From Rhodospirillaceae bacterium CCH5-H10 (GTDB taxonomy: Bacteria; Pseudomonadota; Alphaproteobacteria; Reyranellales; Reyranellaceae), in contig LSKJ01000675.1 in assembly GCA_001557035.1 (NCBI GenBank), forward strand, positions 1 through 15,706: a stretch of 15,706 nucleotides of DNA, in the 5' to 3' direction. Shown piece after piece: positions 11,068 to 11,226 of the stretch (positions are counted from its first letter, which is position 1; every line of letters begins with the position of its first letter). Made by a program: the position numbers and the translations under genes. Below the pieces are notes generated by a model. It made no database searches and was not told where the DNA came from. It worked only from the letters and a program-made list of their open reading frames with translations.

Positions 11068-11109
11068 GACCACCCCAAAATACTTTTGACTTGTTTCCGC
11101 CCCAATCCC

Positions 11110-11125
11110 AGCAAACCGCGTGCCA
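11110..11125 (-). promoter_or_regulatory. Sigma-54 promoter of the torF-family gene
   Basis: Read on the minus strand, TGGCACGCGGTTTGCT matches the -24/-12 consensus TGGCACG-N4-TTGCW at every defined position. The predicted start is near 11099, giving a leader of about 32 bases to the ATG at 11067. A bacterial enhancer-binding protein, NtrC being the obvious candidate beside glnK-amtB, would be required; I could not identify its site. Confidence 0.88.
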
Positions 11126-11154
11126 ATCGCGCGTCGCCGTCCCCTCGGTGCGTT

Positions 11155-11170
11155 TGGCACGGCCCTTGCT
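11155..11170 (+). promoter_or_regulatory. Sigma-54 promoter of glnK-amtB (first copy)
   Basis: TGGCACGGCCCTTGCT fully matches the -24/-12 consensus TGGCACG-N4-TTGCW. The start site would be near 11181, about 46 bases before the glnK ATG. The element points away from the torF-family promoter; 29 bases separate the two. glnK-amtB operons are classic NtrC/sigma-54 targets, induced under nitrogen limitation. Confidence 0.92.
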
Positions 11171-11226
11171 CGCGCTGATTTGAAACTTTGGGGGCGGGCG
11201 TGCCGCCCGGTGGAGGACAGGCGCAA

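Follow-up and report, generated by a model that had tools for sequence, protein, structure and literature searches.

The 159-bp gap at positions 11068-11226 of the window (the whole stretch of DNA that was analyzed, 15,706 nt) is very probably a divergent pair of sigma-54 promoters under nitrogen-stress control and driven by NtrC, which would co-induce the putative porin gene torF together with glnK-amtB. The gap separates torF (10183-11067, minus strand, 294 aa) from glnK (11227-11565, plus strand; PII protein, PF00543), which is followed by amtB (11606-12949, plus strand; ammonium transporter, PF00909, and TIGR00836 above cut-off). A ubiH-family gene (8852-10114, minus strand) lies beyond torF, and a second glnK-amtB pair (13135-14866, plus strand) comes after the first one (11227-12949). 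A TorF-family gene hence adjoins glnK-amtB in the window, and no co-directional arrangement on a single transcript is found there. The preliminary description had called this gene a porin; the family assignment holds (TIGR02001, 112.2 bits with a cut-off of 47.15; PF09694, Gcw_chp), although the product is better named a TorF family putative porin, a name that comes from annotation.

Each of the two genes is faced by a sigma-54 type -24/-12 element: TGGCACGCGGTTTGCT for torF (11110-11125, minus strand) and TGGCACGGCCCTTGCT for glnK (11155-11170, plus strand). Both match the scanned pattern, TGGCACGNNNNTTGCW (TGGCACG-N4-TTGCW, with GG and GC at fixed spacing), with 0 mismatches and are separated by 29 bases, so that the positions, strands, gap length and spacing first reported for the pair were all reproduced. 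They are the sole matches to the pattern in the whole window at up to 2 mismatches. Shuffles of the window gave a mean of 2.49 matches at this threshold, and a loose match therefore means little; both elements here are exact, though. When the gap itself was shuffled, crudely and in two-base blocks, a minus-strand site with up to 2 mismatches appeared in about 1% of the trials and both sites in about 0.02%. The nearest whole genome (G001, 4.9 Mb, 75% complete, with 50% of the window's sampled 31-mers in common) contains the exact pattern twice, both times as this pair, and the reversed control pattern once; the N4 letters differ between the two sites of its pair. At 1 mismatch there was no excess in that genome, with 34 matches versus 40 for the reversed control. 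A scan of positions 10900-11400 for sigma-70-type promoters found none, and a comparison with Rfam returned one match, below threshold (16.2 bits; gathering 45).

The loss of the -24/-12 elements in relatives keeping both genes had been named beforehand as an observation that would speak against a promoter pair. Among the 45 countable loci with torF opposite glnK, window included, both sites are retained in 40 (no more than 2 mismatches, GG and GC being unchanged), the glnK-side site being present in 42 and the torF-side site also in 42; because these loci are mutually related, the counts are not independent. Of the 40 loci having both sites, 37 show a spacing of 25-31 bases. Exact sites occur on the torF side in 11 of the 45 loci, on the glnK side in 31 and on both sides in 10. 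The glnK-side site is missing from two loci (L031 and L039), and a third one from the same other genus (L038) has neither site, the glnK-side -12 reading TTGA in all three; the torF-side site is missing from L052, which belongs to a third genus, and from L095. For these counts, L073 was left out (same place as L057), L132, L135, L118 and L125 were replaced by the longer L156-L159, and L140-L145, containing only glnK2 or an outgroup glnK, were excluded; L158 and L159, in which the opposite gene is beyond the contig end, have both sites and were counted in neither group. In an alignment of 30 gaps both elements stand out and the DNA between them drifts. Together, these comparisons support the view that related genomes treat the pair as two putative working promoters.

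TorF matches were found in 66 of 75 genomes of the family. The named close relatives of the torF product belong to Reyranella, which is probably also the genus of the window. Contig ends fall within torF at three loci (L148, L149 and L150, in genomes G035, G036 and G007), and torF occurs as fragments in G070, as if parts of the gene were repeated in the genome or difficult to assemble.

Loci with other genes opposite glnK were informative about the minus-strand element. At 12 loci glnK faces ubiH and torF is missing; here the glnK-side site is present in 12/12 and the porin-side site in 0/12. Three further loci, from G037, G042 and G052, have a BBP2 porin facing glnK, and all three contain both sites, the minus-strand one being TGGCATATCG[A/C]TTGCT, located 28 bases from the plus-strand site. 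The BBP2 assignment comes from PF07642 (242.5 bits) for L136 of G052, a single-contig genome without any TIGR02001 match, and from tblastn to the L136 protein and inspection by eye for L156 and L157, which hold partial genes at contig ends; the BBP2-like fragment of L156 (72 residues) matched no family in a Pfam scan. The association of the porin-side site with the presence of a porin gene had a Fisher p of 3e-10, which rose to 0.001 when the loci were crudely thinned threefold to allow for kinship. Of the 46 torF copies not beside glnK, three of which came without upstream sequence, 4 had a facing site within 500 bases upstream; one of these four, L056, which sits next to ubiH close to the end of a contig, may itself be a linked copy. 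These data show that the occurrence of the candidate element on the porin side follows that of a porin gene.

They also bear on whether the glnK side might be the only working sigma-54 promoter, the minus-strand match being a chance occurrence or a remnant and torF being transcribed otherwise. Control of glnK-amtB by sigma-54 is established, the torF-side site is the weaker one on average, as judged by the exact sites (11/45 against 31/45), and it has 2 mismatches in 3/3 BBP2 loci. Nevertheless, retention of this site in 42/45 loci amid drifting flanks and in 0/12 without a porin gene, its appearance in only about 1% of the shuffles, and the lack of a sigma-70-type promoter in 10900-11400 make such a one-sided arrangement unlikely, and favor two sigma-54 promoters.

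Regarding the machinery, rpoN was found in 74 of the 75 family genomes. We scanned eight genomes with PF00158 and obtained exactly two strong matches in G003, G005, G013, G052 and G071, more than two in G012 and G049, and just a weak one in G001, whose assembly is incomplete. The identity of the two strong matches was read in two of these five genomes, G013 and G052, and corresponded to NtrC (TIGR01818, 694 bits), with the GAFTGA motif, and NtrX (NF051870, 671 and 663 bits), lacking it; an NtrC with GAFTGA is also present in G012. Since NtrC is the sole strong GAFTGA-bearing match in G013 and G052, both of which carry the paired sites, it is the likely activator of both promoters, judging from these congeners, and the earlier suggestion that a shared enhancer-binding protein serves the two sides is plausible. 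According to the available text of PMC10274813, the Caulobacter NtrC, which has no GAFTGA, binds and activates the glnK-amt operon; the Reyranella NtrC retains this motif. A table of NtrC-dependent genes in PMC5491218 includes porins, with no link to glnK in the part of that article that was available.

The enhancer had been placed outside the 29-base core, perhaps inside a gene, and no clear NtrC box had been noticed. On the latter point our analyses agree: windows for TGCACC-N5-GGTGCA and the strict dyad GCAC-N5-9-GTGC, searched in 38 loci over a stretch beginning 900 bp before the glnK start and ending 700 bp after it, revealed no conserved canonical NtrC box (TGCAC-N7-GTGCA type), the strict dyad occurring in 3 of the 38 loci, at differing places, and being absent from the window. 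As for an enhancer within a gene, there is a candidate 17-mer at positions 11014-11030, in the signal-peptide codons of torF; it reads TGCACACATTGTGATCA on the plus strand and TGNTCACAATNTGTGCA on the torF coding strand. The 17-mer scores at least 11/15 at the same place in 39 of the 45 linked loci (all but L031, L034, L038, L039, L052 and L078), against 10/15 or less in 45 of the 46 unlinked torF copies, the exception, L044, being cut off at a contig end and perhaps also a linked copy. Codon usage in 29 torF genes (excluding L045, which has an internal stop) was unusual at this place: T15 is ACA in 21/23, C17 is TGT in 20/25 and A18 is GCA in 24/27, while further along torF the same codons amount to 5, 2, and 6%, respectively. 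At each of residues 15, 17, and 18 a rare codon has been fixed, which points to a probable constraint at the DNA level.

The chances that the 17-mer is an activator site are about even, and a reading in which it is kept for the signal peptide or through an AT preference of early codons, the true enhancer being elsewhere, has roughly an equal claim. AT-richness is a general property of early codons (A24, for example, is GCA in 14/29), and the fraction of identical codons in the 5-codon window, 0.75, equals the gene mean of 0.75; it does, however, fall to 0.37-0.48 in the windows just outside. The codon bias at residues 15, 17, and 18, compared with the rest of the gene, and the low scores of nearly all the unlinked copies likewise argue against a constraint on the peptide or on early codons, whereas the lack of the 17-mer in the BBP2 loci argues for it. 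So does the distribution of the motif along the genomes. In 14 genomes there were 32 matches at up to 2 mismatches, versus 2 for the reversed control; the torF locus accounts for 14 of the 32, among them every one of the eleven that have 0-1 mismatch, and 15 of the 18 remaining matches were inspected, with no sigma-54 site of 2 mismatches or fewer lying closer than about 400 bp to any of them. We therefore rejected the 17-mer as a general NtrC box of Reyranella (0/15 off-locus matches near a sigma-54 site). The regions upstream of a glnB-like PII gene in 12 genomes (L326-L337) all have a sigma-54 type site of the TGGCATGAA type, with 1-2 mismatches (12/12), and no TGC[AC]C-N7-G[GT]GCA dyad was found in them. 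The off-locus matches without sigma-54 sites and the glnB regions without a dyad leave the 17-mer as a locus-specific candidate only.

The two promoters could also both depend on sigma-54 and yet respond to different activators or to separate enhancers, in which case the porin and the transporter would not be co-induced. The more than two strong activator matches in G012 and G049 are compatible with this, as are the TGCCC-N7-GGGCA-like dyads, of a different type, seen 117-132 bases before glnK in some porin-less loci (e.g., L130, L131, and L133), and the fact that the torF 17-mer departs from the canonical NtrC box and is missing from the BBP2 loci. Separate activation is nonetheless unlikely, given that NtrC is the only strong match with GAFTGA in G013 and G052 and that both genomes have the paired sites.

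In the model of joint activation that we infer from these sequences, sigma-54 RNA polymerase would occupy both -24/-12 elements, back to back. When nitrogen is limiting, phosphorylated NtrC would bind outside the 29-base core, with 11014-11030 in torF as the best candidate site, and would contact both polymerases through DNA looping, firing both promoters. The putative outer-membrane porin TorF would then be made alongside GlnK and AmtB, that is, the PII gatekeeper and ammonium uptake through the inner membrane, and might have a role in nitrogen entry.

A porin as a partner of glnK-amtB under sigma-54 control had been presented as much less familiar than glnK-amtB itself. Co-control is less unfamiliar than that, because other Proteobacteria often have a TorF-family gene and glnK-amtB in a single operon, although the divergent form was not met there. 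A phylum-wide search of 299 genomes yielded, among the 30 best-scoring TorF loci (one per genome), nine with a co-directional torF>glnK>amtB order and none divergent. A second sample comprised the best 80 of 562 loci for one query, nearly all of them from Burkholderiales by title, and is biased for this reason; torF>glnK was co-directional in 73 of these 80 (71 with amtB on the examined stretch) and divergent in none. A sigma-54 site with up to 2 mismatches precedes torF in 70 of these 73 operon loci, and the dyad GCAC-N7-GTGC is present in 47. The window resembles these operons, from Burkholderiales and other Proteobacteria, in having a TorF-family gene beside glnK and a sigma-54 site upstream, but they have a single promoter before torF, often with the GCAC-N7-GTGC dyad, instead of divergent promoters. 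None of the 30 loci from a class-wide search (241 genomes) was divergent either. At locus L361, ubiH faces away from a sigma-54 site, which is followed by torF>glnK>amtB, and at L359 torF lies behind amtB. As L361 has the neighbors of the window with torF in the opposite direction, the Reyranella divergent pair may be a torF>glnK>amtB operon with torF flipped in place.

Divergent sigma-54 pairs served by an enhancer-binding protein are known, for example in Klebsiella nif and in E. coli hyc/hyp, where they serve nitrogen-fixation or hydrogenase genes. Unlike in those systems, an outer-membrane protein is on one side here and ammonium uptake on the other, with 29 bases between the cores. A further parallel is the nlmA-glnK-amtB operon of Herbaspirillum seropedicae, which, according to the available text of PMC3023670, is NtrC dependent, with an amtB::lacZ fusion 21-fold higher under nitrogen limitation. 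From that same text, the logic is the same, in that a membrane-associated envelope protein, GlnK, and AmtB are induced together via NtrC under nitrogen limitation; however, the Herbaspirillum genes form one co-directional operon, in contrast to the window, whose divergent pair has two sigma-54 elements. It is only a lead that NlmA could belong to the TorF family. An 18-base primer given in the available text of PMC3023670 reads SKTFD in one frame, to be compared with ...LTLSKDF... of TorF. There was no Herbaspirillum among the best 80 of 562 named loci. The accessible portion of the H. seropedicae genome paper (PMC3093359) does not mention nlmA, orf1, glnK or amtB, and that of PMC3162934 includes no porin, glnK or ammonium transport, its 8 mentions of the outer membrane being unrelated to the locus. 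The co-location of TorF-family genes and glnK-amtB thus appears to be an old theme, and the idea is not wholly new; what would be new is that the promoters are divergent, that one porin can stand in for another, and that a candidate enhancer lies in the torF signal-peptide codons. Searches of an open-access library met none of the three.

A broader proposal, which we advance tentatively and consider possible rather than probable, is that, within the nitrogen regulon, the position facing glnK-amtB serves as a slot for porins. Any barrel placed there, TorF or BBP2, would have its own sigma-54 promoter, outer-membrane entry of ammonium or small nitrogen compounds would be a regulated and selected step of uptake by AmtB, and a single NtrC enhancer, embedded in the signal-peptide codons of torF, would activate one of the two promoters from upstream and the other from downstream. 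To our knowledge, ammonium uptake is usually discussed for the inner membrane only; the tie of a porin to glnK-amtB, through its position, its own sigma-54 element and a replacement porin with a similar element, suggests that entry through the outer membrane is also controlled. The bacterium could in this way switch on a porin-like protein of the outer membrane and the ammonium transporter together, and the TorF family, which one paper in the open-access library mentions by name, gains a testable role. Additionally, with NtrC as the sole strong GAFTGA-bearing match in two congeners, Reyranella would offer a clean system of one activator and two back-to-back polymerases.

Other sigma-54 type sites were noticed in the course of the comparisons. 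With 2 mismatches allowed, no such site accompanies the second glnK-amtB pair (13135-14866) in the window, and none was found upstream of glnK in L140-L145. In G001, locus L062 (contig C35) contains another back-to-back sigma-54-like pair at 2820-2896, with 1 mismatch each and 45 bases between the sites, flanked by a hydantoinase-like gene and an ABC-transporter cluster, both named by eye; at 1 mismatch such pairs may arise by chance. Upstream of rpoN in 22 family genomes (L151, L155, and L166-L185), a sigma-54 type site is located about 45-50 bases ahead of the likely rpoN start, with 0 mismatches in 18 and 1 in 4, in a set that is biased because many of the 22 were chosen for an exact site listed there; its position suggests possible autoregulation.

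The leaders of both genes were compared as well. The glnK leader (11184-11226 in the window) is strongly conserved there and in other loci and includes a predicted hairpin, GGGCGG-GCGTG-CCGCCC, at 11192-11208 on the plus strand, just ahead of GGAGG at 11212-11216. Its stem varies on both sides between species (GGGCGG/CCGCCC, AGGCGG/CCGCCT, and GGCGGT/ACCGCC), and the best stem reached p ≤ 0.05 against shuffles in just 18 of 50 distinct glnK leaders. The torF leader, which in relatives reads CTTTGGGGGTGGTCGTG, looks like that of glnK (CTTTGGGGGCGGGCGTG). A symmetric operator formed by the two was considered and discarded, the distances of the leaders to their promoters being different; the torF motif reads as an extended ribosome-binding site, and that of glnK as a hairpin that precedes GGAGG.
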